From Amycolatopsis cihanbeyliensis (GTDB lineage: Bacteria; Actinomycetota; Actinomycetes; Mycobacteriales; Pseudonocardiaceae): a stretch of DNA of 64,000 nucleotides. Position 1 is the stretch's first letter; the number at the start of each line of letters is the position of its first letter. Positions 34,454 to 56,321 of the stretch are shown here, in pieces. The stretch is taken from NCBI RefSeq assembly GCF_006715045.1, contig NZ_VFML01000001.1:248001-312000 (forward strand), in the 5' to 3' direction. Below the pieces are notes generated by a model, which was not told where the DNA came from, did not search any database, and worked only from the letters and a program-made list of their open reading frames with translations. A program made the position numbers and the translations under genes.

Positions 34454-34684
34454 AACGAGTCCCGCGGACATCGAGTACCGCGCATCACCCCGACGCGGTA
34501 GTGGATCACCCGGACAGGTGGTAGCGGATCGTATCGGCTGGTGCGGCGGGTTAGCATCCCCGCAGCGGGAGCGGCCCTGCCCAGGGACCGTCCGCCTCCC
34601 GCACGGTCAATGTCCGCCCGTGCCACATATCCCTTGGTACGCGGGCACGGGCACCGCTCGTCGTGCGACAGGGGAGGGCACCAG

Positions 34685-35872
34685 GTGAGTCGCTTCTCGC
34701 GTGCGGTCTCCGCGACGCGTCGTGCCTGGCGCGTTGCCCGCACGGGCGGGCGCTCGTTCCCACTGGCCGTCGCGGGCATCGTCGCGTTCGTGCTGGCCGG
34801 GGTCCTGATACCCGGCGCAGCGACGATCGCCGGGTATTCCGGGCATGCCCTGGCGGCGATCGGCTATACCACGCTGCTCGTGTTGCAGTTGCTGATCTGC
34901 CTGTACGGGCTGGTGCTCCGGGTGGCCGGGATGACGCTACGCCAGACCTGGCCGCTGCTGCTGGCGAGCGCAGTGGTCGCGTGCGTACTCATGATCGAGT
35001 TCCATCACCTGCTGTTTCCCTTGGGCAACATTTCCATGTTCGGGGTCCTGCTGCTCATCCTGATCACCAATCCGTGGTGTTGGGTCGCCTACCTCGGCAC
35101 CGAACTGCTCGCCCTCGCGGTGCTGTGGCTGTGGGCTCCACCTGCCCCGGCCAGCCTGGACACGGCCACCACGGTGCAAAACTGCGTCATCTATCTCGTC
35201 GGCGGGATCGCGATGCGCTCGATGACGTGGCTTGCGGTGCATGCGGCGCAACTGGCCGAGGCCAAGGCCGAGATCGCATGGCTGACCGTGACACAGGAGC
35301 GAGACCGGATATCCCAGGATCTGCACGACCGGCTTGGACAGGATCTCGTGTCGATCATGATGCGTACTGAACTGGCGGGGCGGCTGGCGACCACGGACCC
35401 GGGACGCGCGGAACGGGAAAGCCGGGCCGCGCATCTGGTGGCGCGCCGGGCGTCGCAGGAAATGCGCGGTATCGCGCACGGGACGCTGGTGGCCGATCTG
35501 GATGCCGAATTGGCCGCCGCGGTCGAGTTGCTGGAGTCGCGCGGCGCGGCCTGCCGGTTGCGGATCGGCGAGTATCCCGACGGGCCCGCCGCCGATGTCC
35601 TGGCCTGGGTGCTGCGGGAATCGGTGACCAATATCCTGCGGCACAGCGAGCCGACGATCTGCACGCTGGAGCTGGTACAGACCGGTGACCGGTTCGAGTT
35701 CCTGATCGAGAATGACGGGGTCACCGGACGCGGTGACGCGGCACCGGGTCGTGGGCTGGCCGGTATCGCCGAGCGGGTCCGGCGGATCGGCGGGACTTGC
35801 GGCACGGAGGTCACCGACGGCCAGTTCCGGCTGACCGCCACACTCGCGGCAGGACCGGCCGACACCGGATGA
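34685..35872 (+). CDS. Orphan sensor histidine kinase (HisKA_3/NarL-partner type)
   Basis: A 395-residue membrane histidine kinase. The GTG at 34685 is chosen because GGGGAGGG lies just before it. An N-terminal region with about six hydrophobic segments (to about residue 190) precedes a HisKA_3 dimerisation box, ERDRISQDLHDRLGQDL, with H214 as phosphoacceptor. A HATPase_c domain follows, with VLRESVTNILRHS (N-box) and GRGLAGIAERV (G-box). No response regulator gene is adjacent. The same domain order and close motif agreement are seen in the kinase at 46548-47792, which does have one. It probably shares that regulator or controls the minus-strand glycan genes that it faces. Confidence 0.88.
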   Translation: MSRFSRAVSATRRAWRVARTGGRSFPLAVAGIVAFVLAGVLIPGAATIAGYSGHALAAIGYTTLLVLQLLICLYGLVLRVAGMTLRQTWPLLLASAVVACVLMIEFHHLLFPLGNISMFGVLLLILITNPWCWVAYLGTELLALAVLWLWAPPAPASLDTATTVQNCVIYLVGGIAMRSMTWLAVHAAQLAEAKAEIAWLTVTQERDRISQDLHDRLGQDLVSIMMRTELAGRLATTDPGRAERESRAAHLVARRASQEMRGIAHGTLVADLDAELAAAVELLESRGAACRLRIGEYPDGPAADVLAWVLRESVTNILRHSEPTICTLELVQTGDRFEFLIENDGVTGRGDAAPGRGLAGIAERVRRIGGTCGTEVTDGQFRLTATLAAGPADTG

Positions 35873-35958
35873 CCCGGTCGCGGCCCGCGCGCCGGATCGT
35901 CCGGTGGTATGGCTCGCACCGAATCTTCTCGTGGCTCCGCAACGGCCGGTGGCCACCC

Positions 35959-37188
35959 TTACCGGGCGTGTCCGGCTCGGCCCGCCGCGGACCTGACACC
36001 CAGTGATTCGCCGATCAGTTGCCCGATGTCGTCGGCGGGTATGCCGGTGAACGGGGAACCCTTGCCGCCCCAGAAACGTATGGTGCGTGCCGCGACGATG
36101 CCGGCGGTGTCGTCCTCGCCGTCGAATTGCCCGTCGAGTCCCCAGTCGCGGGTCAGTTCGGCGATTCCGGTGCTCGGGTCGGCGGGCCAACGGCCGTGGC
36201 CTGCCGAGTGAATCCAGTGCCAGGCCTTATGCAGGCGCGCCCGGTCGCCGAACCGGCTGTCCCCGTCTTCGATGCGCCGCCACCAAACCGGCAGCAGTGC
36301 CGCCACCGCGGCTACCGGGTGCACGCCGAGGTGGGTTGCCAGTTCGCTGGCGACCACCCGGCACTTGTCGATGTGCAGCGAGTCCCGGCGAAACACCAGA
36401 CCCAGTTCCCGCGCGGCGTTCGCGCGCGCGGCGAGCAACTGCTCGGCCGGTCCGAAGTCTCCGTCGAGCGCACCGATACCGCAGGTCACCAGCAGGCGGA
36501 TGGCGGCTTTCGTCGCGGCCTCGGCCAGGGTGTCGCGTACCGTGCCGTCGGTGCAGGGGCCGATGAAGCGCAGCAGGGCTGCGGATATCCCCTCGATCAG
36601 GAGCTGCCGGGGAAGGGACGCGGTGAACATGCTGTCCAGCACCGCGGTTTCCGGTGGCAGTTGCGGTCCGTGCACGAGGCGCCGGTGCCCGCGTAGCCGG
36701 ACCACCGCGTACGGGCGCAGTTCGGCGGCCGATCCGATGGTCGTCGGGATGAGGATCCGCCGTGGTTGGCCGCCGGTCGCGGTTGGCAGCTCGACCAGGC
36801 CGTGCCGGGCGCCGCGGGCCCGCACGGTCGGCAGGGTCCGCGGGTCGGCGTACTGCTGGCAGGCGAGTTTGGTGGTGTCCAGGATGCCGCTGCCACCGAT
36901 CGCCACCACCCGGTCGGCGGATGTGGCCGCTATCAACGCGGCGAGCGATTCGACCCGCTCCACCGTCGCCGGTGGTTGGATCACCTGGATTCGGTCGGCG
37001 GGTAGTCCCAACGCGTTATGGATGCTTTCCACGAGCGGGAACCGGGCCGCCGCGAAACTCGCGTCCAGTACCAGCAGGGTCCGGGTACCGGCGTCCGCGA
37101 TCGCGGCTCGCCAGGCACCGCGTCCCACGTGGACACTGGTGCGCTGCCCCGGCCACAGAATGGTGTCCTCGTTAGCTGATCGGTACAT
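35959..37188 (-). CDS. Iron-containing alcohol dehydrogenase / dehydroquinate synthase superfamily protein
   Basis: A 409-residue Fe-ADH-like protein. It shows the nucleotide-binding motif VVAIGGSGILDTTKLACQ (normally GGGSxxDxAK), the PTTIGSAAEL loop, and ATHLGVHPVAAVAALLPVWW, which aligns with the metal-binding H-LG-H-ALLP region. The family includes glycerol, glycerol-1-phosphate and lactaldehyde dehydrogenases and sugar cyclases, so the reaction is unknown. The ATG lies inside the end of the upstream gene (17-base overlap), showing translational coupling. As the last gene of the minus-strand glycan set, it may supply a polyol or sugar precursor; that is inference from context. Confidence 0.75.
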   Translation of the reverse strand: MYRSANEDTILWPGQRTSVHVGRGAWRAAIADAGTRTLLVLDASFAAARFPLVESIHNALGLPADRIQVIQPPATVERVESLAALIAATSADRVVAIGGSGILDTTKLACQQYADPRTLPTVRARGARHGLVELPTATGGQPRRILIPTTIGSAAELRPYAVVRLRGHRRLVHGPQLPPETAVLDSMFTASLPRQLLIEGISAALLRFIGPCTDGTVRDTLAEAATKAAIRLLVTCGIGALDGDFGPAEQLLAARANAARELGLVFRRDSLHIDKCRVVASELATHLGVHPVAAVAALLPVWWRRIEDGDSRFGDRARLHKAWHWIHSAGHGRWPADPSTGIAELTRDWGLDGQFDGEDDTAGIVAARTIRFWGGKGSPFTGIPADDIGQLIGESLGVRSAAGRAGHAR

Positions 37189-37600
37189 ATCCTGACGCCG
37201 CCTGGTAATAGGTTCCGAACATTCCTTGGGTACGCGCGAACAGGACGCCGCCGGCCTGCCGCATTTCCTCGGGTGCGACCGTGCACTGCACCGCGCTGAT
37301 GCACCCGGCGAGGGCGAGCAGTACGATATCCAGCTCTCGGCGAAGGTCCACCGGCAGCGTCGTCACCGACGCGCCGGCGATCACTACGACCGTGGCACAC
37401 AGCACGAGGAACACCTTTGACCAACCGATCTTCCAGTTTTGCAAATCGGTATTGATTCCCTCCGTCGGACCGGAGTAGCCGACGGAGGGAATCCGCAGGG
37501 ACGGGCGGTGGCAGGTCAGCCGTCGCGCTGCCGGTCGCCTGCCCATCCTCCGCAGCAGCAGCCCGATCATGACGAGTGCCAGCGCACCGATGATGAACAC
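37172..37600 (-). CDS. Small membrane protein of unknown function
   Basis: A 142-residue protein with about three hydrophobic segments: FIIGALALVMIGLLL at the start, VFLVLCATVVVIAGASVT in the middle, and LDIVLLALAGCISAVQC near the end. A basic stretch (RRMGRRPAARRL) follows the first helix. I do not recognise the family. The start is taken as the GTG at 37600, preceded by GGGAA and 7 bases after the stop of a 16-codon reading frame that has the strong ribosome site; an alternative GTG lies at 37636. Its end overlaps the Fe-ADH-like gene. It is probably a membrane partner in the surface-glycan pathway. Confidence 0.6.
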   Translation of the reverse strand: MFIIGALALVMIGLLLRRMGRRPAARRLTCHRPSLRIPSVGYSGPTEGINTDLQNWKIGWSKVFLVLCATVVVIAGASVTTLPVDLRRELDIVLLALAGCISAVQCTVAPEEMRQAGGVLFARTQGMFGTYYQAASGYVPIS

Positions 37601-37607
37601 TTCCCAG

Positions 37608-37658
37608 TCACCAGGCGGCCCCCGCGAGGTCGGCACTGGGAACGAGATTTCCGTACAT
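37608..37658 (-). CDS. Possible 16-residue leader peptide
   Basis: The sequence AAGGAGGTGACCC directly before the ATG at 37658 is a near-perfect ribosome site, yet that frame encodes only MYGNLVPSADLAGAAW before a TGA. The membrane-protein frame begins 7 bases later. This looks like a translated leader whose termination loads ribosomes onto the next gene. Alternatively, the start of the next gene has been misjudged or there is a frameshift. Confidence 0.4.
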   Translation of the reverse strand: MYGNLVPSADLAGAAW

Positions 37659-37746
37659 GGGTCACCTCCTTCCCGCTCGTCGGCACGGCCGTTCAGGGTC
37701 GGCTTCTGGCCTGGTGCCCGCGAAAAACACGATTCCCGGGACATGA

Positions 37747-37917
37747 TCAGTTTCCGTCCTCTCGGGCCAGACGCCTGCGGCGGCGGGCGAACAGCACGAT
37801 CAGCGTGCCCGCGATGACGAGTGCGACGGCCAGTGAGATCCACCAGCTCAAACCGGCACCGGTCACCGCGAGCCCGCCCACTCCTCCGGTGACACCACCG
37901 GGTCCAGGCTTGTACAT
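37747..37917 (-). CDS. LAVTG sortase-signal mini-protein (56 aa)
   Basis: A 56-residue peptide starting at an ATG with a strong ribosome site (GGAAGGAGGAAT). It has a short Gly/Pro-rich head (MYKPGPGGVTGGVGG), the pentapeptide LAVTG at residues 16-20, a hydrophobic span (about 24-43) and a basic tail (RRRRR). That is a complete C-terminal cell-wall sorting signal for class E sortases, which prefer LAxTG, with almost no protein in front of it. No separate N-terminal signal peptide is visible. It sits just downstream of the GT2 synthase and in the same island as a class E sortase (43984-44682), suggesting it is an anchor or primer that the sortase joins to the wall or to a glycan. Confidence 0.75.
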   Translation of the reverse strand: MYKPGPGGVTGGVGGLAVTGAGLSWWISLAVALVIAGTLIVLFARRRRRLAREDGN

Positions 37918-37974
37918 TCGATTCCTCCTTCCATTGATACGAGATGAGAACTGTCGGTGGGGACGTCGCACTGG

Positions 37975-39339
37975 TCATGCTTCGACGGCGACCTCCCGGC
38001 TGCTCACTGTTTCGGCGTTGCGCCGAGTCTTGGACCAGCCATGCTGGCCGCGGATCATCCGGTAGACCGCGCGCACGGAGGTCACGTAGAAGGTGCAGAC
38101 ATACAGTGCGAAGCCAAGCCCCATACCGAGTCCGGCGACAAGGCCGCGTTCGCGGCGGCATTGGAACTGGTAAATGAATCCCCAGACCACGAAGGGCCCG
38201 GTGGCCAGCGCCGCGAACAGCGTCAGCATCAGCCAGCCACCGCCGGTCAGCACGCTTGCCAGCGCGGCGGGTTCACTGATCACCTGCCCGAGCAGGAGCA
38301 GCAGAGGTATGGGATAGACGACCGCGCCGACCAGTTGCAGCCAGGGCTGGATCAGGTAGTAGCTGACTTCGGTGACACCCAGTGCCCGGAAGTGCGGCGA
38401 CCGCCAGACCGAGGGCAGGTACCGGACGCACTGCATGGTTCCCTGCCCCCACCGGGTTCGCTGGGTGATGAACCGGCGCAGGCTGTACAAACCCTCCTGC
38501 GAGACATAGGAGTCCGATGTGGACGCGGTGCGCCATCCGGCCATGAGCAGGTGCACGCCGAGCTCGTAGTCCTCCAGCAGCAGGCCGCGCCAAGGCTGGC
38601 CGGTACCCCGTGCGATGGTGTGCAGCGCCGACATCCGGGTGAACTGGCCGTTGCCGCCCATCGCCACAGTCCCGGCGTATGCCCGGGAATGCTGGATGGC
38701 CGAGATCGCGGTGCGGAACTCCATATCCTGTAGCTGGACGAGTTTCAGCGCGGCCCAGCGCTTGGGGCGGCTTGGCCAGTCGGGTTCGGTGTCCCGGTTG
38801 AGCATCCGGACCTCGACCTGTACCGCGCCCACCGCGCCGTCGCCGAAGAGGTGGTCCGCGGCGCACACATCCAGGCAGTTGGGCGCGAGCACCCCGTCCG
38901 CGTCGACGACGCCGACGATGACCTTCTCCCAGGACAGGTGCCCGCCCAGCCAGGCGGCGAGTTCCTGGTAGGCGGCGTTGAGCGCGTCGCCTTTCCCGGT
39001 ACGCGCCTGCGGGGGCCGCCTGCCCACCAGGTGGATGTGTGGGTCGGGATCGCCCTCGGCGTGCATGAGCGAGGTGACCACTCGCGCGGTGCCGTCGTGC
39101 GAGTCGTCGTCGATGACCCAGACATGCGCTGCGGGAAACGTCGACCGTAACCGGAAGATGGTGTCACCGATGACGGTTTCCTCATCCCGGCAGGGCACGA
39201 AGAAATGCCACTCGAACTCGCCGCCGTTGCCTTCCGGCATCCGCCGCCGGCACACGAACGGCACCACGATCGCGCACACGTACGCGATGAAGACACCGCT
39301 GCTGGTGTAGGTGAAAACCCCGATGAGTGTGCTGAACAT
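37975..39339 (-). CDS. Processive family 2 glycosyltransferase, membrane-bound
   Basis: A 454-residue GT2 enzyme of the cellulose/hyaluronan/PNAG-synthase kind. After an N-terminal helix, the catalytic domain shows VWVIDDDSHDGTARVV, VGVVDADGVLAPN (DxD), LLEDYELGVHLL (general base ED) and QRTRWGQGTMQ (Q-x-x-RW), all diagnostic of processive synthases. About four membrane helices follow (about 320-430). It should polymerise a nucleotide sugar while extruding the chain; with the epimerase at 44685-45812, UDP-GlcNAc or UDP-ManNAc are plausible donors. It lies 6 bases from the AftB-like gene and 57 bases from the LAVTG mini-protein gene, so they are probably co-transcribed. Confidence 0.9.
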   Translation of the reverse strand: MFSTLIGVFTYTSSGVFIAYVCAIVVPFVCRRRMPEGNGGEFEWHFFVPCRDEETVIGDTIFRLRSTFPAAHVWVIDDDSHDGTARVVTSLMHAEGDPDPHIHLVGRRPPQARTGKGDALNAAYQELAAWLGGHLSWEKVIVGVVDADGVLAPNCLDVCAADHLFGDGAVGAVQVEVRMLNRDTEPDWPSRPKRWAALKLVQLQDMEFRTAISAIQHSRAYAGTVAMGGNGQFTRMSALHTIARGTGQPWRGLLLEDYELGVHLLMAGWRTASTSDSYVSQEGLYSLRRFITQRTRWGQGTMQCVRYLPSVWRSPHFRALGVTEVSYYLIQPWLQLVGAVVYPIPLLLLLGQVISEPAALASVLTGGGWLMLTLFAALATGPFVVWGFIYQFQCRRERGLVAGLGMGLGFALYVCTFYVTSVRAVYRMIRGQHGWSKTRRNAETVSSREVAVEA

Positions 39340-39345
39340 TGCCCG

Positions 39346-41619
39346 CTACCTTCCTAGGAACGAGAAGTTCCACAGGTTGTCCATCACGATGTCCGTGTCG
39401 GACCTTTCGTTCTGCGCCCAGGAGTGCTGAAACACCTCGTTGAGCCGCTGCGACAGGTCGCCTCCTCGCCATTCCGGGCCGATCCAGTAGTTCAGGTAGT
39501 AGTTCGGCGCGAACTCGGCGGCGGGTGCCGCCCAGAAGTCGCGGCTGGGTTCGGTCACATAGGAGTGCACAGACTGCGCCGCGTGGGTACGCCACGTGGA
39601 TTCGGCATTGTCCGAACTGGACAACAGGATCGCCAGCTGCAGGTTCTGGTCGTCCAGGAACTCGCTTTCCAGGGTTCCGTCGACCGACTCCCTGGTCGCC
39701 AGTCCACCGATATCGATCGCTCGACGATCGGCCTGGTAGGGCAACACGCCCGCGTCGGCAACGGCGAGCGCACCGTCCGGTAGCTGGGCCTGGTGGATCG
39801 CCTGACCGACCGCCTGGTGCGCAGCCGCCAAGCGGTACCGATAGGCCAGCATGCTGGTCATCTCGGTGGCATCACCGAATCCGACCACGGTGGACAGTCC
39901 AACCGCCCCGAGCGCCGCGGCTCCGGCGATCTTGCGCATGCTGCCGGCCACCACGGCGATCGCCACGATTCCGGTGCCGATGGCAACACCCGTCGACAAC
40001 TGCCCTGGTGCCCACAGCAGCACGGTGCCGGTCGCCACGGCGAGCGCGACCAGCGCCAGCCCGCGCTGCCGCCCCGGCTCCGGTGTGCCGGGATCGGACA
40101 CCAAGCGCATCGGCCTGCTCAACACCAGCAGCGCTACCGGGAAGAGCAGCTGCCAGTAGAACCGGTGACCGGTGTCCATCACCAGCTCGGACTGCCGGTA
40201 CACCCCGAACACCAGGACCGCGGAGGTCACCGCCAGCACCACCGGCACCGCGTCCCGCAGCATCTCGGTCCGTGACCACAGTGAGGCTCCGGTGACCCGG
40301 CGGTACAGCGCGAAGCCCAGCACGAGGCCGATCAGGACGGGCAGCAGGATCGGCCCGGCCACCGGCAGCACATACATGATCTTGATCAGCAACGGCTCGT
40401 CGCCGCTGGTCTTCTTGTAGAACGTGTTGGGGAAGAAGGAACCGAAGTACCACCACCGGGCTCCCCAGTAGACCGCCCATCCGGCGAGCACGACGAACGC
40501 GCCGCGCCGGTTGGCCGTGCTCCGGTCGATCAGCAGCGACCAGCAGATCGCCACGGCGGCCAGCACGATGCCCTCCGGCCTGCTCAGCGCCACCGCCCCG
40601 GCCAGCACGAACCCACCGCGCCCCAACGCCCCTCGGCGGTAGACGATGGCGAAAAGCCAGGCGATCAGTAACGCGAAGGACACAGTCTCCAGCCCCATGA
40701 ACAGCTGGAGGTGGAAGATCGGGCTGGCCAGCGTCACCGCGAACAGGACGAACTCCTGTCCCCTCGGTAACCGGGCTCGGCGCACGACGACGACATAGCC
40801 AACCGCGATGCCGACCGCCAGGATCTTGAAGAACAACTCGGCGGATATTCCCAGCGCCGCCGGGATGATCGACAGCACCGCGTACAGCGGGTTGGTGTAC
40901 CCCTCGACGGGCGGGCCGTCGCTGTTCCAGTTCCAGACGCCGTGCTCGACTAGGTTCTTACCGTATCGCCAGGTGATGAACGAATCGTCCATCGTCACCC
41001 GGAAGAACAAGAACCCCAGGGCCAGCGCCACCAGGCCGAGCACCACATAGCCCAGGCCCCACAGGCCCCGTCCCTGGGCTCCACCGGGGGTGTCCACCGA
41101 GCATTCCGGCATGCGCTCCAGGTCGTCGGCGGTCGCGGGATCGTGCTCGGCCGCGTCACTCGCCGGCAGCGACACCAGGTGCTTCCGCCACGTGCGTAAC
41201 GCATCTGGGGTGGCGGTCCCGGTCACCGATTCCTGGTCGACCGGAACGAATTCAACGCCACCACCCGGTCGCGCGACGGCGATCTCCCGGTTCAGTCTGT
41301 CGCCGACCGCGAGCAATCTGGTGCCCGGTGCGCCGCCACGGAACGCGTTCCAGGCCGGAATTGGCTGGCCGAACACGCTCGGGGCGTCGGCGCCGCCGTC
41401 GTCCACGACGTACGCGGTTGCCGGATTGCCAGGTGTCAGCGCGAAAAGCTCGGTCAGCCGGGCGGAATCACCGGTCTTTGCCCAGTCGTCGACGACGTCG
41501 GCTGGTGCGGCACCGCTGGTTGTGACGGTGGCGGCCGCCGGGGACAGCGCACGGCCGGATGGCTGCGGTTGCTCCAGGTCGCCGGTCTGGCTGGCCACCG
41601 GGTTGCCCAGTGCTGACAT
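39346..41619 (-). CDS. AftB-like polytopic glycosyltransferase (GT-C fold)
   Basis: A 757-residue membrane protein. About 190 N-terminal residues form a hydrophilic region without clear family assignment. Some ten or more hydrophobic helices follow; the first luminal loop carries TMDDSFITWRYGKN and VEGYTNPLYAVL, the pattern of AftB-type arabinofuranosyltransferases and related lipid-linked sugar transferases, where the Asp residues are catalytic. The C-terminal 150 residues are extracytoplasmic and contain ALAVADAGVLPYQADRRAID, also typical. It probably adds terminal sugars from a polyprenyl donor to an exported glycan. The GGAGAAAG ribosome site before the ATG supports the start. The N-terminal domain is an unusual addition. 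Confidence 0.8.
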   Translation of the reverse strand: MSALGNPVASQTGDLEQPQPSGRALSPAAATVTTSGAAPADVVDDWAKTGDSARLTELFALTPGNPATAYVVDDGGADAPSVFGQPIPAWNAFRGGAPGTRLLAVGDRLNREIAVARPGGGVEFVPVDQESVTGTATPDALRTWRKHLVSLPASDAAEHDPATADDLERMPECSVDTPGGAQGRGLWGLGYVVLGLVALALGFLFFRVTMDDSFITWRYGKNLVEHGVWNWNSDGPPVEGYTNPLYAVLSIIPAALGISAELFFKILAVGIAVGYVVVVRRARLPRGQEFVLFAVTLASPIFHLQLFMGLETVSFALLIAWLFAIVYRRGALGRGGFVLAGAVALSRPEGIVLAAVAICWSLLIDRSTANRRGAFVVLAGWAVYWGARWWYFGSFFPNTFYKKTSGDEPLLIKIMYVLPVAGPILLPVLIGLVLGFALYRRVTGASLWSRTEMLRDAVPVVLAVTSAVLVFGVYRQSELVMDTGHRFYWQLLFPVALLVLSRPMRLVSDPGTPEPGRQRGLALVALAVATGTVLLWAPGQLSTGVAIGTGIVAIAVVAGSMRKIAGAAALGAVGLSTVVGFGDATEMTSMLAYRYRLAAAHQAVGQAIHQAQLPDGALAVADAGVLPYQADRRAIDIGGLATRESVDGTLESEFLDDQNLQLAILLSSSDNAESTWRTHAAQSVHSYVTEPSRDFWAAPAAEFAPNYYLNYWIGPEWRGGDLSQRLNEVFQHSWAQNERSDTDIVMDNLWNFSFLGR

Positions 41620-41728
41620 TCTTTCTCCAGATGACTTTCTGAATGGGAAATGGCCGGTGTGTCCAGCCAGGAAAAGGGACGATTGTCGAATGAATGGCGC
41701 CGAGGGCTTGGCCCGGCCCCGATGTCAC

Positions 41729-41773
41729 CGACGTGGCCGGGGCCATAGCAGGCCTGCGGCCCCGGCCACGTCG
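41729..41773 (-). terminator. Strong hairpin terminator after the Ig-repeat protein gene
   Basis: A perfect 16-bp inverted repeat (CGACGTGGCCGGGGCC, 41729-41744, with its complement at 41758-41773 and a 13-base loop) lies 27 bases after the stop of the minus-strand gene. No long U-run follows, as is usual in actinomycetes. It separates the Ig-protein transcript from the glycosyltransferase genes. Confidence 0.7.
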
Positions 41774-41799
41774 ATGGAGTTTCAGCGAAATCGGATCTG

Positions 41800-43770
41800 C
41801 TACTTCTCGACCACGGTGCCCTTCAATGGCACCGGAGTGAACCCATCGAGCTTGGCTTCTCCGACAGCCTTCTCTCCCGGTGTCGCACTGGCGTCCACCT
41901 TGGCGATAGCCGTGATGGAGAGCTTGAACGCCTTGATGTCGTCACCGAAGGTCGCCTTCATCTCCTCGGCAGGCGGCAGGGTCACCGCGAGCGTGCCGTC
42001 ATCGTTGCGCTGCACCAGGTTGTTGATCCCGATACCTTTCCCGATGCCGTTGTGTCCGACAACCACATAGGACACGTTACCGAAGGTGAACCCTTCCGGT
42101 GCCCTCAGCGTCACCGTCTTACCCGCGATGCTGGTGACATCGCCGTTCTTCGGCTCGAAGTTGACGTCAAGGTAGCTGTTCTCGCCCGGCTTCGCGGTGG
42201 GCACGACGTTCTGGTAGAACTCCGGCTTCTCGGCGCGGACCGTCTTCGGATCGGAGGACACCGGGTCACCGCTGCCTTCCTTGGGCTTGGCGACCACCTT
42301 GACCTGGCTACCGTCCTTCAGGTTGTTCGGCAGCGTGATCTTCGCCTTGCCGTCCTTGATCTCGACCGGACCACCGATCTGCTTGCCGTCCTGGTCGACC
42401 GCGGTCACCACACTGCCGTCGCTACCGGTCACCGTCAGTTCGTCACCCGGCCGCACGTCACCAGCGGGTGAGGTGATCACCGGCTTGTCCACACCGGCCT
42501 GTACGGTCTTCTCGTCGGAGAATTTCGGCTGACCAGAGCCGTCCTTGGCCTTCGCCTCGACCCTGACCTTGGCACCGTTCGGCAGGTCGTCGTTCAGCGT
42601 GACCTTGGCCTGGCCGTCCTTGACCTCCACCGACGGCCCAACCGGCTTGCCGTCCTTGTCGACCGGGGTCACCACGCTACCGTCGCTACCGGTCACCGTC
42701 AGCTCCTGGCCCGGTTTCACCGTGTCGCCCTCCGGCGAGGTGATCACCGGCTGCTTCACGTGAGGGGCAGGATCGTCACCCGACTTGACGTTGACGATCT
42801 TTGGATCCGATGCCGCGGCCGGGCCCCCTTCGAGCTTCTGCGACGTCGCCTGGATTAGATGCGTCTGGCCCGCCTTCAGATCGGACGGCAGCCTCAGCTT
42901 CCACGTGCCCTGGGCATCGGCCACGACCGAGGGTTCCGGATACGCGGTTCCGTCCACCTTGAACCGCACCGTAGTGCCAGGATCAGCCTTACCGGTCAGC
43001 TCACCACCCTCCGGGAGATCCACGGTGTTCCCGGCAGGCGCGATGGTCGGCTTACCCGGTGCCTTCGGCAACTGGACCGGAAGGTAAGCCAACCCCTTTT
43101 GGTTGGAGCGCAGCAGACCGAAGAGGTTGTTCAAGGCAACGTCGCCACCCACATTGATCATCCGACCGGGATTCTCCGGAACGGTGAACTCACACGTCGC
43201 CCGGACGTTGGAATTGAAGAAGTCCGAGACGACATTCTCACCGATAACCCCCGAAGCCAGATCGGCGAACAGGTTCCGCACCTGAGCGACCAGACCACCC
43301 ACGTCGACGGGCTCGAAGTTGAAACCGCCCTCCTTCTTACCGCGCTCGAACTTCTGCGTCGCCGGTTGCTGCCCGCGCCCGAAGTCCGCACACGTCTCAC
43401 CATTCAAGGTGATGTTCGCCGTCTGCCAGGCGAACAACTTGACCAGATCCTGCGCGGCATTGAGCTGCCCTTTGCCGGCCTTGTCGGCCTGGAACGTGGT
43501 CCAGATGTTCCACAGATCCCACTCGACCGACACCGTAGCGCGCTCGCCGGGTAGAACCTTGCCCTCCTTCTTGTTCACCTTGAAATGCATCCGATCCGGC
43601 GTGCCCGGCCGCTTGTCCAGTTCGGTCCAACTGTTGTTGTCCGGACGCCCTTCCGCGGCCGCCACCCCTTGGCTGGCTACTCCACCTACGAGCGCGGCAC
43701 CCATGGCGGTTAACACCGCCGCGCGCGCAAAAGGCTTCAGCCCCCTGCGTTTCTGCTCTTTTACCGGCAT
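41800..43770 (-). CDS. Secreted surface protein with bacterial Ig-like repeats
   Basis: A 656-residue exported protein. The ATG at 43770 has GGAG nine bases upstream and gives MPVKEQKRRGLKPFARA followed by a hydrophobic signal segment ending near AAAEG; an ATG 24 bases earlier lacks a ribosome site. Residues 40-240 form an unrecognised domain with two Cys. Three Ig-like modules follow: one diverged (about 245-335) and two near-identical ones (about 337-424 and 425-510), each opening PVITSP and containing ELTVTGSDGSVVT. The last 140 residues are another beta-rich domain. There is no sorting signal or C-terminal helix, so attachment must be indirect. Role inferred: adhesin or matrix protein associated with the glycan. 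Confidence 0.8.
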   Translation of the reverse strand: MPVKEQKRRGLKPFARAAVLTAMGAALVGGVASQGVAAAEGRPDNNSWTELDKRPGTPDRMHFKVNKKEGKVLPGERATVSVEWDLWNIWTTFQADKAGKGQLNAAQDLVKLFAWQTANITLNGETCADFGRGQQPATQKFERGKKEGGFNFEPVDVGGLVAQVRNLFADLASGVIGENVVSDFFNSNVRATCEFTVPENPGRMINVGGDVALNNLFGLLRSNQKGLAYLPVQLPKAPGKPTIAPAGNTVDLPEGGELTGKADPGTTVRFKVDGTAYPEPSVVADAQGTWKLRLPSDLKAGQTHLIQATSQKLEGGPAAASDPKIVNVKSGDDPAPHVKQPVITSPEGDTVKPGQELTVTGSDGSVVTPVDKDGKPVGPSVEVKDGQAKVTLNDDLPNGAKVRVEAKAKDGSGQPKFSDEKTVQAGVDKPVITSPAGDVRPGDELTVTGSDGSVVTAVDQDGKQIGGPVEIKDGKAKITLPNNLKDGSQVKVVAKPKEGSGDPVSSDPKTVRAEKPEFYQNVVPTAKPGENSYLDVNFEPKNGDVTSIAGKTVTLRAPEGFTFGNVSYVVVGHNGIGKGIGINNLVQRNDDGTLAVTLPPAEEMKATFGDDIKAFKLSITAIAKVDASATPGEKAVGEAKLDGFTPVPLKGTVVEK

Positions 43771-43896
43771 GGATTCAATCTCCACTCTTTTCATTCGGAG
43801 CAGAACTCGAGCGAGTTCCTCGTGATTTCAGGCTATGAATCCTCAACCGGTCGCGCAAGTGGTTCCGAAGAGCGGGTGAGGAATCTGTCGAGGCGT

Positions 43897-43914
43897 CGTG
43901 CGATAATTACACGG
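43897..43914. promoter_or_regulatory. Partial palindrome resembling the 45992-46013 site
   Basis: Read on the minus strand, CCGTGTAATTATCGCACG lies about 127 bases before the Ig-protein start, in an AT-rich patch. It shares CCGTGTAA and a right-hand CACG with the palindrome at 45992-46013, so both could be bound by one regulator, possibly the LuxR-type regulator of this island. The match is by eye. Confidence 0.35.
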
Positions 43915-43983
43915 TCCCGTTGGTTTAATTCTTCACATGCCCTGGCCGGCGGCGGTCCGGCGGAACGGGCACACGGACGCCGC

Positions 43984-44682
43984 TCAGCCCCTCGGGGTTT
44001 CCGACTGAAGCTGGGCCTCCACGATCAGGCGCTGGTAGTTGTCCCACTTCGGGTTACAGGTGGTCAGGACCAGGCGGGACTCGGTCGGCTGGGCACCGGT
44101 CTGCCCCGGTAGCGGCGCGAGTTCCGCCGACGCGTTCGGGCCGACGATACGTGTGCCCGTGACCTGATAGGTGTAACGCGCCCGCGGACCTTCCACCTCG
44201 ATCACGTCACCCGCGGCGAGTTCGTCAAGGTCCCAGAACACGCCGGGAATACGATGTCCGGCAACCGCGAAGTTCCCGATTTCGCCGGGCATTTGGGTGC
44301 CCCGATAGTGACCGGGGCCGGATCGTAGCGCCTGCTGGGTCGTGCCCTCGGTCACCACCCAGCGCAGGCCGAGCCGGGGAATCGAAAGCCGGACCAGCGG
44401 TTGCCCCTCCGTCGCCACCCGATCTCGGGGCGCCGTTGTCCCCGGGGCAGCGGCAGGCTGGTCCACCGTCGGGTCGGGTGCCACCAGGCCAGTCCACTGC
44501 TGCTCCAGTGCGTGGTCCAGTTCGGCCTGGGCGTCCTGTAGCTCGCCTAGCTGGCCCCAGGTCTTGTAGGCGACGAAGAGCAACGCGACGATGCCGAGCG
44601 TCACACAGATCTCGCCCACGCTGCAGACCACCCGAAGCGTCCACTCCCGCCGGCGGCTGAGAGCGGCCGTGTTTCGCGCCAT
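43984..44682 (-). CDS. Class E sortase
   Basis: A 232-residue membrane-anchored transpeptidase. One N-terminal helix (VTLGIVALLFVAYKTWG) is followed by a linker and a catalytic sortase domain with H143 (FAVAGHRIPG), C209 (LVLTTCNPKW) and R218 (NYQRLIV). TTCNP is typical of class E enzymes, which cut LAxTG signals and join them to the peptidoglycan cross-bridge. A matching LAVTG substrate is encoded at 37747-37917. The start is 2 bases from the epimerase stop, so the two genes are one unit. The usual actinobacterial housekeeping sortase locus (trpG, crgA, pknB) is not here, so this is an accessory sortase. Confidence 0.92.
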   Translation of the reverse strand: MARNTAALSRRREWTLRVVCSVGEICVTLGIVALLFVAYKTWGQLGELQDAQAELDHALEQQWTGLVAPDPTVDQPAAAPGTTAPRDRVATEGQPLVRLSIPRLGLRWVVTEGTTQQALRSGPGHYRGTQMPGEIGNFAVAGHRIPGVFWDLDELAAGDVIEVEGPRARYTYQVTGTRIVGPNASAELAPLPGQTGAQPTESRLVLTTCNPKWDNYQRLIVEAQLQSETPRG

Positions 44683-44684
44683 CG

Positions 44685-45812
44685 CTACGCGGCCATTCCC
44701 GCCGCGGGCAGGTCGAGGAACCTTTCGATCGCGCGGACGGCACGATGCCCGGCATCACCGGCGCCATAAGGATTCCGGGCGGCAAGCTCTACCTTGTTCG
44801 CCAGCAGCTGTTCGGCCGTCTCGACGATCCGGACGTCATCGGTCCCGACCAGCCACGCGCTGCCGGACTCGATGGCTTCCCGGCGTTCGGTGGCTTCCCT
44901 GGTCACCAGCACCGGAACGGCGAAACTCGGTGCCTCCTCCTGGATACCGCCCGAGTCGGTGACGATGAGCGTGCAGCGCCGCATCACCCAGACAAGGTCG
45001 GAATAGGCCAGCGGATCGGTGATCGTGACCCGGGGCGTAGTGCGCAGGGCGGATCGGACCTGGGCTCGGACCGCCGGATTGGGATGCGCGGGCAACACCA
45101 CCCGTAGCTCGGGATGAGCGGTGACGATCTTCCGCACGGCGACGAGCACCCGATCGATACCATCGCCCCACGATTCGCGCCGGTGCAAGGTTACCAACAT
45201 CAACCGCCTGGCATCCCGGACGCCCTCGCGCAAATCCGGGTCGGCTATCGGTAGCTCCTTCGCGGCAATGTGATGCAGGGCATCGACGACCGTATTCCCG
45301 GTCAGTACCACCCGTTCCGCGGGAATGGCCTCGTCCAGCAGGGCACGCGCGGCCGATTCGGTCGGCGCCAGATGCAGCGACGCGATCCTGGAAACCAGTA
45401 CCCGATTCGCCTCTTCCGGGAAAGGCGCCCGCAGATTTCCCGTCCTGAGCCCGGCCTCGACGTGCACGACCGGTATTCCCCGCCAGAAAGCCGCAAGGGC
45501 ACCGGCGAGGGTGGTCGCCGTATCGCCCTGCACGACTACCGCGGACGGCGCGAAATCGCTGATCGCGGCATCGAGCGCGCCGAGCATGCCACCGGTGACC
45601 GAAGCCAGCCCGCCCGCACCACGCGCGAAGCACAGTTGCCGGTCGACGTGCAGGTCGAACGGTTCCAGTGCCTGCCCGACCATGGTCGGATGCTGCCCGC
45701 TGGCGACGATCCGCGGGGTCATCGACGCGTGCCCGGCCATGGCCAGCGTGACCGGCGCCAGTTTGACCGCCTCCGGCCTGGTCCCGGCGACCATCAGGAT
45801 GTTTTTCTTCAT
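44685..45812 (-). CDS. wecB: UDP-N-acetylglucosamine 2-epimerase (non-hydrolysing)
   Basis: A 375-residue cytosolic epimerase that interconverts UDP-GlcNAc and UDP-ManNAc. The family blocks are clear: MKKNILMVAGTRPEAVKLAPV at the start, VVVQGDTATTLAGALAAF, VHVEAGLRTGNLRAPFPEE, VTLHRRESWG, and VTDSGGIQEEAPSFAVPVLV. The open frame extends to 45917, but the ATG at 45812 gives the canonical N-terminus; no strong ribosome site precedes it. It is the first gene of the minus-strand island and would supply a ManNAc-type donor for the surface polymer. It faces the divergent region with the 22-bp palindrome. Confidence 0.92.
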   Translation of the reverse strand: MKKNILMVAGTRPEAVKLAPVTLAMAGHASMTPRIVASGQHPTMVGQALEPFDLHVDRQLCFARGAGGLASVTGGMLGALDAAISDFAPSAVVVQGDTATTLAGALAAFWRGIPVVHVEAGLRTGNLRAPFPEEANRVLVSRIASLHLAPTESAARALLDEAIPAERVVLTGNTVVDALHHIAAKELPIADPDLREGVRDARRLMLVTLHRRESWGDGIDRVLVAVRKIVTAHPELRVVLPAHPNPAVRAQVRSALRTTPRVTITDPLAYSDLVWVMRRCTLIVTDSGGIQEEAPSFAVPVLVTREATERREAIESGSAWLVGTDDVRIVETAEQLLANKVELAARNPYGAGDAGHRAVRAIERFLDLPAAGMAA

Positions 45813-45991
45813 GAGTGCGATCACCAATACCCGTGAGAGGAATTCCGGCGCCACCTCGACGCGGACGACTATCAAGAGGCTAACACGACGAAAACGACGA
45901 TAAGATGTTCTATCCACGACCTGCTGGCATCTGATGAAACATTACACAACGCGCCGATGGCACCCTTCACGACCACCACCGGAGAGGTGGC

Positions 45992-46013
45992 ACCCGTGTA
46001 AATATTCACGGGT
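45992..46013. promoter_or_regulatory. 22-bp palindromic candidate operator
   Basis: ACCCGTG-taaatatt-CACGGGT, with perfect 7-bp arms and an AT-rich centre, lies in the 447-base divergent region between the epimerase and the 55-residue membrane protein. The rest of that region is AT-rich next to the epimerase (45830-45960), where promoters would be expected. It is a good candidate for binding by a regulator of the island. Confidence 0.5.
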
Positions 46014-46259
46014 CACCAGTGTGACAGTTCCCGGAGAAACGATTGAACTCTGTAGTTTCCCCGGTGCCGGCTACCGGGCATCATCACCACGGCGCACCGT
46101 GAAGCGGCGACGGGGTCGGCTTCCTTCGGTTGCGCGGACCGGCAGCCCGGTGCCCCCAGATTCCCGGGCTGCCGGTACCCGGAACGAGCGCCTCGGTGCG
46201 ACTCGATTCGGGGGGAGCCGCACCGAGGCCGCACCATCCAGCGGGAGGAGGAACCGACC

Positions 46260-46427
46260 ATGACACTGTACTCGTTCCTGTGGCGGCTGCTTCCCGGTCC
46301 GGTCGCCGTGAAAACAACTCTTTGCCTGGCGATACTGGCCGGGCTCGGCCTGGTGCTGTGGTATCTGGTCTTCCCCGTCATCGACGACTGGCTGTTCCCG
46401 ACCGACGCGGCCATCGTCCAACCCTGA
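46260..46427 (+). CDS. Small membrane protein, 55 aa
   Basis: A 55-residue protein with a textbook ribosome site (GGGAGGAGGAACC) before the ATG. It reads MTLYSFLWRLLPGPVAVKT, then one helix (LAILAGLGLVLWYLVFPVI), and ends DDWLFPTDAAIVQP. Small proteins of this shape (WRLLPGP, one helix, FP end) are, as I recall, found beside class E sortase genes near crgA and trpG in other actinomycetes. Finding one opposite this accessory sortase suggests a functional link. It could be a sortase or glycan-export accessory; no role is established. Confidence 0.7.
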   Translation: MTLYSFLWRLLPGPVAVKTTLCLAILAGLGLVLWYLVFPVIDDWLFPTDAAIVQP

Positions 46428-46547
46428 CAGCGTCCCACAAACGGGTGGCCACCACTGAAGACGCCATCGCGTACCGGCGGAGGTGTGCTTACCATCCGGG
46501 CATCCGTCCACTGTGCTCGGGCGGCGGATAAGCCGATCGGGGAACAG

Positions 46548-47792
46548 ATGAAATGGCACCAGAAGTTCCGGGAGGCGACGGTGGGCCAGATAAAGGTAAT
46601 CTGGTCTGCTGGCAGAACAGCAAAACTCGCCGCGCTTGGCCTTGTGTCGGTCGCATGCATGATATCGGGCGTGACCCTTTTCTCGACGGTACAAAATTAT
46701 CACGGCACAGGAGAAGCATTACTTTCAGAACTCTGCCTGGTGCCTCTGACCTTTGTCCTATTACTAGGGCTGGCTTACCGGATCCGGGCAGCAACCCCCA
46801 GTTCGATGATCGCGCTCGTAGTTGCGCAGCTAGCACTGCTGGTTGCTACCCGTCTGGCACTGCGACTGGAAGGCACGCCCATCGAGTTAACGTTCTGTTG
46901 GCTGATGCTCATCATTATCCCAGGAGTGCTGGCATGGTGGGTCTACGGTGGCCTTTGCCTGGCATATTTTGCTTACGTTTACTATGTTCAGAGGGCACTA
47001 CATGGAATGGAACCCCCTCCGGATATCCTGCAAAAGCTAGTGGAAAGCTTGCCCTTCATCGCACAGTACTTTGCCGTTGGCTTGGCGATTCGATCTATGG
47101 TCAACATGGCGATGCTCTCCTTGGCGCTGCTGCGTGCACGCGCAGAGATCACCCGATTGGGTGTAGCTCGAGAGCGTTCCAGGATGTCCCAACAGCTCCA
47201 TGACCGGCTCGGTCATAGCATGGTCGCCATCATGTTGCGCAGCGAGCTGGCCGAACGGTTGTCCGGAGTGGACGACGCCAAGGCCCGGACCGAGATGCGG
47301 GCGGTCAACGACACCGCCAGGGAAACCCTCGACGACGTCCGGCGGATCGCGCACGGCGGGCTGAACACCAGCTTCGACCGCGAACTCTACGGCGCCACCG
47401 AACTCCTCGAAGCGTCCGGGATCCATTGCCTGCTGCACATCGCGGGTGAGCCCGATGGCCGCACCGCGGAGGTACTGGGCTGGGTGCTCCGGGAGGCCAC
47501 CACCAACGTGCTGAAACACAGCACGGCCACCGAATGCGTCATCACGCTGAGCGAAGCCGACAAGGCGTACGCCCTCACCATGGCGAACGACGGCGTGGCA
47601 CAGCACGGCCAGGAGCGGATCGGCTCCGTGCCACGCTGCATCACCGGTCGAGTCGAGGAAGCCGGTGGCTCGGTGACGGTCGGCCGGTCACGGGGAAAGT
47701 TCACGCTACGGGTCGAGATGCCAGCCCGGCCGGTGCGGCCGAGCGGTATCGCCAACGACCTCCGGGCAGCCCGACATGAGGAGAACGCGTGA
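46548..47792 (+). CDS. Sensor histidine kinase (HisKA_3 type)
   Basis: A 414-residue membrane kinase. The ATG at 46548 follows GGGGAAC; a GTG at 46485 is possible. About six hydrophobic segments reach to residue 200, then ERSRMSQQLHDRLGHSM carries H218, and the ATPase domain has VLREATTNVLKHS and MANDGVAQHG. The N-terminal half has clearly lower GC than its surroundings, while the kinase half has normal GC. It overlaps the response regulator gene (GTGA), making a two-component pair, and is a paralogue of the orphan kinase at 34685-35872. The signal is unknown; the surface-glycan genes are the likely targets. Confidence 0.9.
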   Translation: MKWHQKFREATVGQIKVIWSAGRTAKLAALGLVSVACMISGVTLFSTVQNYHGTGEALLSELCLVPLTFVLLLGLAYRIRAATPSSMIALVVAQLALLVATRLALRLEGTPIELTFCWLMLIIIPGVLAWWVYGGLCLAYFAYVYYVQRALHGMEPPPDILQKLVESLPFIAQYFAVGLAIRSMVNMAMLSLALLRARAEITRLGVARERSRMSQQLHDRLGHSMVAIMLRSELAERLSGVDDAKARTEMRAVNDTARETLDDVRRIAHGGLNTSFDRELYGATELLEASGIHCLLHIAGEPDGRTAEVLGWVLREATTNVLKHSTATECVITLSEADKAYALTMANDGVAQHGQERIGSVPRCITGRVEEAGGSVTVGRSRGKFTLRVEMPARPVRPSGIANDLRAARHEENA

Positions 47793-48397
47793 TGATCCAG
47801 GTACTGCTGGCCGAGGACCAGCGGGTCCTCCGTGACGCGCTGGTGTCGCTACTCGAACTGGAACAGGATATCGAGGTGATCGGTGCGACCGACTGCGGCG
47901 GGAACGTCGTCCCACTGACTACCACCAGGCGACCGGACGTGGTGATCCTCGACATCGGCCTGCCGGACATCAGCGGGCTCGCCGTGGCCAGCGAGCTACG
48001 ACGCCAGTGTCCCGATATCCGGATCCTGCTGCTCACCTCGCTGGACAAACCCGGTACCGTGCGCGAAGCCCTGTCCGCGGGGGTGGACGGTTTCCTCCCC
48101 AAGGGAGTCACCAGTGGCGAACTGGTCACCGGGATCCGGCAGGTGCACGCCGGGAAACGTGTGGTGTCCCCGGACCTGGTCTCCGCCGCACTCGCTATCG
48201 GCGAGAATCCACTGACTCCCCGCGAACGCAGCATTCTCCAACTCGCCGCGGCGGGCACGCCACCGCCGGAAATCGCAAACCAACTGTTCCTCGCCGAGGG
48301 CACCGTGCGCAATCACATCACTCGGGTGATCGGCAAACTCTCCGCGCGCAATGCCACGGACGCGGTGCGCATCGCCGACCAGCTCGGCTGGCTCTGA
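47789..48397 (+). CDS. LuxR/NarL-family response regulator
   Basis: A 202-residue response regulator. The receiver domain (1-120) has the acidic pair in LLAEDQ, phosphoacceptor D55 in VVILDIGLPDISG, a Thr in LLLLTSLDKPG and the conserved Lys in GFLPKGV. The C-terminal GerE-type helix-turn-helix reads LTPRERSILQLAAAGTPPPE then FLAEGTVRNHITRVIGKL. A GAGGAGAAC ribosome site precedes a GTG that overlaps the kinase stop; an ATG sits one codon later. It should be phosphorylated by the upstream kinase, and possibly by the orphan kinase too, and bind operators in this island. Confidence 0.93.
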   Translation: MMIQVLLAEDQRVLRDALVSLLELEQDIEVIGATDCGGNVVPLTTTRRPDVVILDIGLPDISGLAVASELRRQCPDIRILLLTSLDKPGTVREALSAGVDGFLPKGVTSGELVTGIRQVHAGKRVVSPDLVSAALAIGENPLTPRERSILQLAAAGTPPPEIANQLFLAEGTVRNHITRVIGKLSARNATDAVRIADQLGWL

Positions 48398-48908: not shown

Positions 48909-49892
48909 TCATCGAGTCTGCTGCTGCGCGTCGGCGTGGGCAGTTAGCTGGGGCGTGCAGTCGATTGGCTTGGCGTGCGCGGGATCCAACTGGTTGAGCA
49001 GGACCTGGACTGACACCGGGTTGGAATGTGAGTCGAAGTGGCCGGCTTCGGCGTCGGGACAGAGGTCGGTCAGCCAGACGTTGTTGACCCCAGGTTCGTT
49101 GATGAAGGCTCGTTCGGGTGGGGTGACCACCCAGTCGCCCTTGACCGACAAGACGGCGTACCGGACGCCGGGACGGGTCACGCCGCCCTCATTGAGGTCG
49201 CTGATGAAACGGGAGCCGACCAAGGCGTCGCCGCATGCCGGGCAGAGCGCCAGGAGTGCCAGGTTGACGACGCCCCGCCCGACGACCGTGGCATCCAGAA
49301 GGTTCGTGAGGCCGGAGACGGTCGTCCCTTGCGTGCTGGGGGAGAACAGTGTCGCGGACGCGACCTGCCCCCGGCGCGCGAGGTTCTTGACGTAATACTC
49401 CGCCAAGGTGGCCCCTTCGGAGTGTCCGGCCATGTCGACCTGACGAGCGCCGGTGGCCGTGAGGACTTTGCCGACGAACTGATCGATCTCCGCGGCGGAG
49501 TGCGGGATCGGCGCGATCCCGTTGACTTTCCGCAGGGTGGTGAACCACTTCCCATACTCCGGCGCGAAAACGCAGTAACCGTCCCGGACCAGCGCGGTTG
49601 CCGGGCCGCTCCAGTTTCCGGGATCGCCGTTGAAGCCGTGCAGCAGGACCACCGGACGAGGATGCCGGCGCGAGGGCCAGCAATCCCAGTCGTTGACGCC
49701 CTCCATCGAGGGCTTCGGCATCGTGAACTCCGGTGGCCGCTCCTTGCTGCTCAGCTGCCCGGACGGGGCCGCCGCGGTCGCTGCTGCGGCAGGTGTGATC
49801 AGCCCGGCTACGGCCAGGACCGAAGCGAGCAGGGCCCCGGCGGCGAGGTGGGCGGGCTTCGGCCTGATGCCGGTGATGATGGAACGGGCCAC
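48909..49892 (-). CDS. Secreted lipase-like alpha/beta hydrolase
   Basis: A 327-residue exported lipase of the actinobacterial triacylglycerol lipase type. The GTG at 49892 is preceded by TGGAG and opens the signal sequence ARSIITGIRPKPAHLAAG followed by LLASVLAVAGLITPAAAA. The mature part has the oxyanion VVLLHGFNGDPGNWS, the nucleophile elbow VDMAGHSEGATLAEYY, the acid-bearing VLSVKGDWVV and a His near GHFDSHSNP. Cys pairs (DWDCWPS, DLCPDA and others) suggest disulfides. The first 40 residues and the upstream DNA are nearly identical to those of the serine hydrolase gene at 51244-52878, showing a recent duplication. Confidence 0.88.
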   Translation of the reverse strand: MARSIITGIRPKPAHLAAGALLASVLAVAGLITPAAAATAAAPSGQLSSKERPPEFTMPKPSMEGVNDWDCWPSRRHPRPVVLLHGFNGDPGNWSGPATALVRDGYCVFAPEYGKWFTTLRKVNGIAPIPHSAAEIDQFVGKVLTATGARQVDMAGHSEGATLAEYYVKNLARRGQVASATLFSPSTQGTTVSGLTNLLDATVVGRGVVNLALLALCPACGDALVGSRFISDLNEGGVTRPGVRYAVLSVKGDWVVTPPERAFINEPGVNNVWLTDLCPDAEAGHFDSHSNPVSVQVLLNQLDPAHAKPIDCTPQLTAHADAQQQTR

Positions 49893-50007
49893 GGTGACTC
49901 CAGGCACGGCTCGTGGGGTTGAATGATTCTCACCTTTGACTGCGGCCCCGTCGATGCCTGGGTCCGCGCGACCACCGGCCTCATCCTGGACCGCGTCGGC
50001 GAGCTCG
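49786..50007. repeat. Duplicated segment, copy A (signal peptide, promoter region, pucR 5' remnant)
   Basis: This stretch matches 52778-53100 almost base for base, except that about 100 bases (the equivalent of roughly 52928-53037) are missing. It contains the lipase signal-peptide codons, the upstream region, and on the plus strand a broken copy of the PucR-type regulator N-terminus (VDAWVRATTGLILDRVGELD). It ends in GAGCTCGACACCGG, a string also found late in the pucR gene (around 53941), which suggests a recombination junction. Confidence 0.8.
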
Positions 50008-50101
50008 ACACCGGCGTCGTTCGCCTGGGCGGCCACCCTCGACGACAACTATGCCTGGTGGTTCCGCCTCGGCGGGCTCGCCGGATGTTCGTGGGCCTCC
50101 T

Positions 50102-52878: not shown

Positions 52879-53100
52879 GGTGACTCCAGACACGGCTCGT
52901 GGGGTTGAATGATTCTCACCTTTGACTCGCGATCATGGCCACGGTGATTCCCCGAACCTGGCGCCGAGGTTCTCGGGGAAACCCCCAACTCGTGTCGCTG
53001 ATTCGGCCATCCGGAACAGATACTTGGTGGATGAGCCAAACCGTCGATGCCTGGGTCCGCGCGACCACCGACCTCATCCTGGACCGCGTCGACGAGCTCG
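52778..53100. repeat. Duplicated segment, copy B (parental copy)
   Basis: This copy contains the serine-hydrolase signal-peptide codons, the divergent promoter region and the intact 5' end of the PucR-type regulator. It is longer than copy A (49786-50007) by about 100 bases and is continuous with complete genes on both sides, so it is probably the original. Only a few base changes separate the two copies, indicating a recent event or gene conversion. Confidence 0.8.
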
Positions 53101-54179: not shown

Positions 54180-54264
54180 GCAGTCCGATGTGGGACTGTG
54201 CATCGAACGGTGCTTCCGGCCCGACACACCGGGCTGAGGTTCGGTGGGATGGGTACGGATAGTG

Positions 54265-56107: not shown

Positions 56108-56269
56108 GTAGTCCTCCACGATGCCCGGCTGTACTTCGGCAGGCGCCGATGAGGTGTTGGCCTGCACCGTGTGATCGGCAACTGCGCCGGCCATGGACGC
56201 CGAACTGCCTATCAGCAGCGCGCACGCGCCAGCAACCAGGGCAGGACGAAGCCACGAGCCTATCGTCAC
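56102..56269 (-). pseudogene. Small secreted protein gene truncated by the IS5 element
   Basis: A GTG at 56269, preceded by GGAGGGGAAGTGGGGAAC, opens a signal-peptide-like start (TIGSWLRPALVAGACALL then IGSSASMAGA) and a short polar stretch (VADHTVQANTSSAPAEV) ending VEDYQ. The final Gln codon and the TGA lie inside the right inverted repeat of the IS5 element, so the true C-terminus has been lost. The family is not recognised. The signal peptide and ribosome site suggest it was once a secreted or cell-surface protein. Confidence 0.55.
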
Positions 56270-56321
56270 GTTCCCCACTTCCCCTCCATTACTTTGGTAT
56301 TGAGCCGTTCGGGGTAGTCGA

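Follow-up and report, generated by a model that had tools for sequence, protein, structure and literature searches.

An apparent class E sortase variant of the exosortase P locus in a surface-glycan gene set of Amycolatopsis cihanbeyliensis

Gene content of the locus

The stretch of DNA analysed, hereafter the window, comprises 64,000 nucleotides (G000:C1:248001-312000) of the 7.4 Mb genome, and the gene calls in it rest on open reading frames with codon statistics, on Pfam and on NCBIfam. Between positions 34541 and 48397 lies a set of surface-glycan genes, conserved and probably co-transcribed, in which all of the genes named in a preliminary description are present, with corrections. Promoter and terminator scans stayed at chance level, and Rfam and tRNA scans across the window were empty. 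At 63-69% GC, the set differs little from two other genomic stretches (67-71%), and we therefore claim no foreign origin. Elsewhere in the window, NRPS genes (AMP-binding, condensation, PP-binding) together with ABC, FecCD and periplasmic-binding genes at 58-30613 have the look of a siderophore-type cluster, and several transposase fragments of different families are found downstream of the set (54244-57823 and 62801-63433). Two near-identical segments (97-98%) at 49811-50007 and 52797-53100 cover the beginning of a lipase-like gene (48909-50048, minus strand) and sequence surrounding the start of a PucR-type regulator gene.

The GT2 synthase (37975..39339, minus strand) is a member of the XrtP-associated glycosyltransferase family NF053846 (661.8 bits, cut-off 520); its active-site motifs are intact in the sequence, its best solved fold is hyaluronan synthase, and it stays below the cut-off of the PNAG synthase model PgaC/IcaA (TIGR03937, 41.5 against 422 bits). 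Its nearest relatives come from Amycolatopsis, plus one named Kribbella. Six bases separate it from the GT-C gene (39346..41619, minus strand), and 57 from the mini-protein gene. Since the PDB sequence search returned no match for the GT2 profile and no relative of the GT-C enzyme (two matches at E 1.5), structure prediction was needed: the AlphaFold2 model of the GT-C enzyme (mean pLDDT 86.9) has a predicted AftB fold with an N-terminal soluble domain, AftB ranking first in both Foldseek and VIA and oligosaccharyltransferases appearing at lower rank. The non-hydrolysing UDP-GlcNAc 2-epimerase (44685..45917, minus strand) is of the WecB type (TIGR00236, 377 bits, cut-off 210). An Ig-like-repeat protein (41800..43794, minus strand; Big_6 in Pfam), read by eye as secreted, contains direct repeats at 42231-42714 and no L[APS]xTG sorting signal. 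For the small membrane protein (37172..37744, minus strand; start uncertain, 142 to 190 aa), neither NCBIfam nor Pfam gave a match; at about 37610-37744, in a frame that differs from its own, a strong ribosome-binding site is followed by a 16-codon ORF starting MYGN.

The 56-aa mini-protein (37747..37917, minus strand), whose gene is preceded on the 5' side by the ribosome-binding site GGAAGGAGG, reads MYKPGPGGVTGGVGGLAVTGAGLSWWISLAVALVIAGTLIVLFARRRRRLAREDGN, with an N-terminal MYK, a Gly-rich stretch, LAVTG, a single hydrophobic helix and an Arg tail, and with no N-terminal signal peptide visible by eye. It scores below the cut-off of NF058583 (58.9 against 65 bits, profile positions 1-53 of 54 covered) and above that of NF058582 (30.8 against 27 bits). 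Judged by charge, the Arg tail suggests a C-in, N-out orientation, which would put the sortase site just outside the membrane. LAXTG is the motif recognised by class E sortases (PMC5148588), and a sortase of this very class (43984..44682, minus strand; NF033747, 189.6 bits, cut-off 160) is encoded within the set. Its catalytic His, Cys and Arg are present in the alignment, and it resembles solved sortases, SrtE1 included. The genome has a second class E sortase, which shares 32 to 41% identity with the sortases of this and related sets, and directly behind that other sortase (L157 6946-7101) lies a relative (40%) of the 55-aa membrane protein of the set (46260..46427, plus strand). The latter gene stands on the strand opposite to the sortase in the window and behind the sortase in five related islands, three of which show 4-base overlaps between the epimerase and sortase genes and between the sortase and 55-aa genes; the protein is thus a probable class E sortase partner.

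A further minus-strand gene encodes a Fe-ADH-like dehydrogenase (35959..37188), for which the nearest curated family is daptide dehydrogenase (NF041822) and which is 33-35% identical to a protein named daptide dehydrogenase (MpaC type). According to PMC10036551, daptide dehydrogenase acts on a C-terminal Thr, and a sortase cut would leave such a Thr end, which gives rise to the thought that the set is a daptide-like peptide-modifying pathway in which the Fe-ADH-like enzyme modifies a Thr-ended peptide. We hold this to be very unlikely, considering that the score lies under the family cut-off (222 against 300 bits), that no aminotransferase, methyltransferase or other daptide protein match was found in the set with models that did not include MpaB by name, and that the enzyme would be cytosolic whereas the sortase works outside.

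Islands across the genus

The unit recurs, in differing gene order, in six of 80 congeneric genomes, so that the conserved co-occurrence asked for in the preliminary description does exist. The reading of the locus as a regulated set for a surface glycan, to which a class E sortase and a LAxTG mini-protein belong, is well supported. GT2 relatives of at least 73% identity occur in these 6/80 genomes, the next best being 62%, while some GT2 match (E 1e-100) exists in 69 of the 80; the island GT2s form one tree group (100/100). By gene calls and BLAST, all six islands contain the Fe-ADH-like enzyme, GT2, mini-protein, epimerase, sortase, 55-aa protein and response regulator (the sortase of L001 was found by BLAST and is absent from the gene calls). 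The GT-C enzyme is present in four, in three of which an Ig protein is encoded directly upstream of it.

Two HisKA_3 sensor kinases identified by Pfam, HK1 (34541..35872, plus strand) and HK2 (46485..47792, plus strand), 33% identical over 416 aa, and a response regulator with receiver and LuxR-type HTH domains (47789..48397, plus strand; Pfam) had been described as framing the set. Relatives of the response regulator (67 to 74% identical) lie near all five other islands. Complete relatives of HK2 occur in L001 and L004 and partial ones in L003 and G164, and L002 yielded none; the membership of HK1 is doubtful and gained no support. That of the small membrane protein, likewise counted as part of the set before, gained none either, as BLAST detected no relative of it at any of the five other islands.

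Variable gene order and the lack of conservation of HK1 and the small membrane protein are what one would expect if these were simply unrelated neighbouring genes. It is, however, extremely improbable that they are, as seven genes recur in 6/6 islands despite rearrangement, and the coincidence of the Fe-ADH-like enzyme with the island GT2 in 6/80 genomes (p about 3e-9 assuming independent genomes, which they are not) largely contradicts that view. Fe-ADH copies of at least 42% identity are confined to exactly the six genomes with an island-type GT2, and the two copies of 38% belong to G166, a genome without an island, and to G136, where the copy is on a different contig. About 20 kb from the island of G164 there is an exosortase-type locus, which counts against the explanation favoured below. 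A gene pair for a beta-lactamase-fold protein and an S9 peptidase stands beside two of the six islands (L001 14203-16736 and window 50102-52893; 57 and 72% identity).

The exosortase P module and its relatives

The same genome carries, at C1:3201-3205 kb, a complete XrtP-type locus consisting of an epimerase, a GT2 (718 bits), exosortase P (234 bits, cut-off 200), CoaP and an LAXTG small protein over its cut-off, adjoining genes read by eye as tsaD, rimI and tsaB. This exosortase P is the sole match of the genome at E 1e-15, and none lies beside the GT2 of the window, where no exosortase match better than E 0.008 (tblastn) was obtained, that one falling outside the set. CoaP had no NCBIfam match among the ten proteins scanned, its best tblastn match in the window reaching E 0.056 with two queries, and none of the four fetched island loci contained XrtP or CoaP.

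Across the 120 family genomes surveyed, 26 GT2 loci exceed the cut-off, and an exosortase-family match (E 1e-15) lies within 5 kb of 25 of them (20 over the XrtP cut-off, five below); the only one without is that of the window, which has the class E sortase. A LAXTG small-protein match (E 1e-7) lies within 5 kb of 24 of the 26, the mini-proteins of the other two (L235, L236) being recognised by eye. Fourteen weaker GT2 loci have neither match at those thresholds, one of them (G211, L234) showing both on a laxer look, and ten of 34 small-protein matches are found away from such a GT2, nine of them weak (35 to 39 bits) and the tenth, in G213, at 70 bits. A collection of 80 related loci, the best 80 of 302, includes many near relatives, so that its counts are not independent events: mini-protein in 80, epimerase in 78, exosortase in 73, CoaP in 70 and class E sortase in six. 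The mini-protein form [M/V]Y...LAxTG is almost invariant here (79/80), with MY before LAxTG in 74 and VY, read as a GTG start, in five; the remaining locus, L080, has a longer LPFTG protein.

An alternative is that the mini-protein serves GT2 as a regulator or membrane subunit, similar to the helper subunits that PNAG and cellulose synthases have, and that a sortase or exosortase cut releases, activates or turns over this subunit, the 19-residue peptide being a by-product. Its presence at 24/26 GT2 loci speaks for this, as does its persistence beside GT2 in L034, L036 and L040, where neither exosortase nor sortase occurs in the fetched stretch. Furthermore, 20 genomes contain an over-cut-off small protein, and the sole one lacking a GT2 match at E 1e-60, G213, has a small protein without the MY start (12 of 19 candidates scored in this comparison). 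Nevertheless, an invariant LAxTG would be odd in a mere subunit, and distant mini-proteins track the exosortase more than GT2, and we consider this explanation unlikely, albeit with a chance that deserves attention. In L034, L036 and L040 the GT2/mini-protein pair also lies near a 1174- to 1222-aa protein.

The distant loci bear directly on the first partner of the mini-protein. In 246 genomes of the class, three of five small-protein matches outside the present genome have a GT2 relative no more than 2 kb away, and an exosortase-like ORF accompanies each of the three. In 38 further GT2 loci, searched with a pattern that did not require MY, the mini-protein was present in 13 of 18 with an exosortase match against one of 20 without (L208, L209 and L220 judged by eye, with LPQTG in L209 and VATTG in L220), which suggests that the processing enzyme, and not GT2, may be its primary partner and weakens the idea of a mini-protein tied to GT2 alone. 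L208 is one such case, where a single ORF (6614-7315) encodes an LPYTG mini-protein and then, in frame, the exosortase. Eight of the 11 mini-protein matches listed for distant loci start with MY; in L201 and L202 the MY comes at a Met further on, and L199 lacks it. At the last locus (7718-9195), a mini-protein and an epimerase occur in a genome without a GT2 match at E 1e-60.

Sortase in place of exosortase

Exosortases and sortases are unrelated enzymes. The C/R/H residues are intact in 72 of 75 exosortase sequences. Two of the exceptions, L024 and L057, have lost Cys and His and carry a class E sortase directly behind GT2; the third, L007 (Cys and Arg lost), comes from the strain that also carries L024. 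Among distant exosortases 17/18 keep C, R and H, the 18th being the locus of L057 once again (L237). The six sortase-bearing members of the 80 loci thus comprise four islands with a sortase and no exosortase, and L024 and L057 with both. Taken together, the window as the sole GT2 locus without an exosortase and the lost Cys and His at two loci with both enzymes make this set of a soil actinomycete look, as far as sequence can tell, like a sortase-for-exosortase variant of the XrtP-type locus.

Two stronger versions of this idea were given up. Strict mutual exclusion is ruled out by L235 and L236, which have an exosortase with intact C, R and H (nearest XrtS and XrtP, under both cut-offs), a mini-protein, and a class E sortase 2.2 to 2.6 kb from GT2, so that the two enzymes are not mutually exclusive. 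Recruitment of the sortase on two occasions is not established either, since a single origin of the island and L024/L057 GT2s was not rejected (AU p 0.13).

Proposed mechanism

Read from its letters, the locus is a conserved gene set akin to the XrtP module, with intact sortase and GT2 motifs and with neither an exosortase nor CoaP, its presumed substrate. We favour, at slightly less than an even chance, the explanation that it derives from the actinobacterial exosortase P/GT2/LAxTG-mini-protein module and has come to depend on a sortase, which joins a peptide to a wall precursor. The epimerase would supply UDP-ManNAc or balance UDP-GlcNAc, and GT2 would polymerise an amino-sugar chain and move it across the membrane, where the GT-C enzyme, if present, may add a residue outside from a lipid-linked donor. 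The mini-protein would be a membrane protein whose short N-terminal arm faces outwards; the class E sortase of the set, together with the 55-aa protein, would cut between Thr and Gly of LAVTG and join the 19-residue Tyr/Gly-rich peptide to a cell wall precursor. The peptide may then have its role at the synthase, where it would offer a docking site on the wall side, holding the polymer or the synthase at the wall, the whole set presumably being controlled by the two-component system. Several points speak against this explanation: the orientation of the mini-protein is judged from charge; L235 and L236 combine an intact exosortase with a class E sortase; L034, L036, L040 and L231 have GT2 and mini-protein with neither enzyme in the stretch fetched; distant mini-proteins go with the exosortase; and the mini-protein might be a substrate of the genome's other class E sortase.

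In the model of the preliminary description, the mini-protein would instead carry the polysaccharide covalently, with the invariant Tyr2 as one candidate site, and the sortase would join the glycopeptide to the wall; we regard this as improbable. Hyaluronan-type synthases start their chains without a protein primer, and the set contains no LCP or oligosaccharyltransferase family match, although the GT-C model resembles oligosaccharyltransferases at lower rank. In its favour, Tyr2 is kept in 79/80 related loci despite the variable arm around it, and A. oris has a glycosylated wall-anchored protein (PMC6381275). Slightly less probable is the specific proposal that the GT2 polymer is primed by or attached to Tyr2, with exosortase P or the class E sortase moving a 19-residue glycopeptide to the wall; if true, the wall polymer would resemble a proteoglycan whose protein anchor is extremely small, served by two interchangeable and unrelated transpeptidase families.

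Comparison with known systems

The GT-C enzyme is 18% identical to mycobacterial AftB, differs from it by an extra N-terminal domain, and has no other recognised arabinogalactan gene beside it; in the same way, the set differs from daptide systems in that no other daptide gene was recognised beside the Fe-ADH-like enzyme. GspA is a large protein anchored by another sortase class. In Actinomyces oris, as reported in PMC6381275, this wall-anchored protein is glycosylated by LcpA, and the case, likewise actinobacterial, differs from the present set in the absence here of an LCP match. With Streptomyces SrtE1/SrtE2 and chaplins (PMC5148588) the set shares the class E model, the catalytic residues and the LAxTG signal; it departs from them in a presumed substrate of 56 aa, with no signal peptide by eye and a 19-residue outer arm, and in a sortase gene placed within a glycan set.

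The closest likeness is to the XrtP/CoaP/GT2/LAXTG_small_WW locus (NF012139, NF053845, NF053846, NF058583), with which the GT2 family, the mini-protein family and the epimerase are shared; instead of exosortase and CoaP, the set has a class E sortase, a 55-aa partner and a Fe-ADH-like enzyme, and some islands have a GT-C enzyme and an Ig protein in addition. The claim of a new kind of glycan attachment has consequently to be reduced: GT2 belongs to a named family, the mini-protein is a near-member of NF058583, their pair accompanies exosortase P in many family genomes and also at the second locus here, and a glycan on a wall-anchored protein has its precedent in A. oris (PMC6381275). In the freely accessible literature, as far as its text was available, we found no description of the function of exosortase P and its GT2 or of this module, and exosortase G is mentioned in the lactobacillus literature. 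The GT2 family, the mini-protein family and their pairing with exosortase P are thus known already. What is new is that a class E sortase appears to have taken the place of exosortase P, while GT2, the epimerase and the LAxTG mini-protein are common to both systems. The sortase stand-in and the dead exosortases of two related loci offer a genetic handle on the XrtP module, whose function would become testable in a culturable Amycolatopsis, because both systems share these three components and sortase chemistry is easily assayed.
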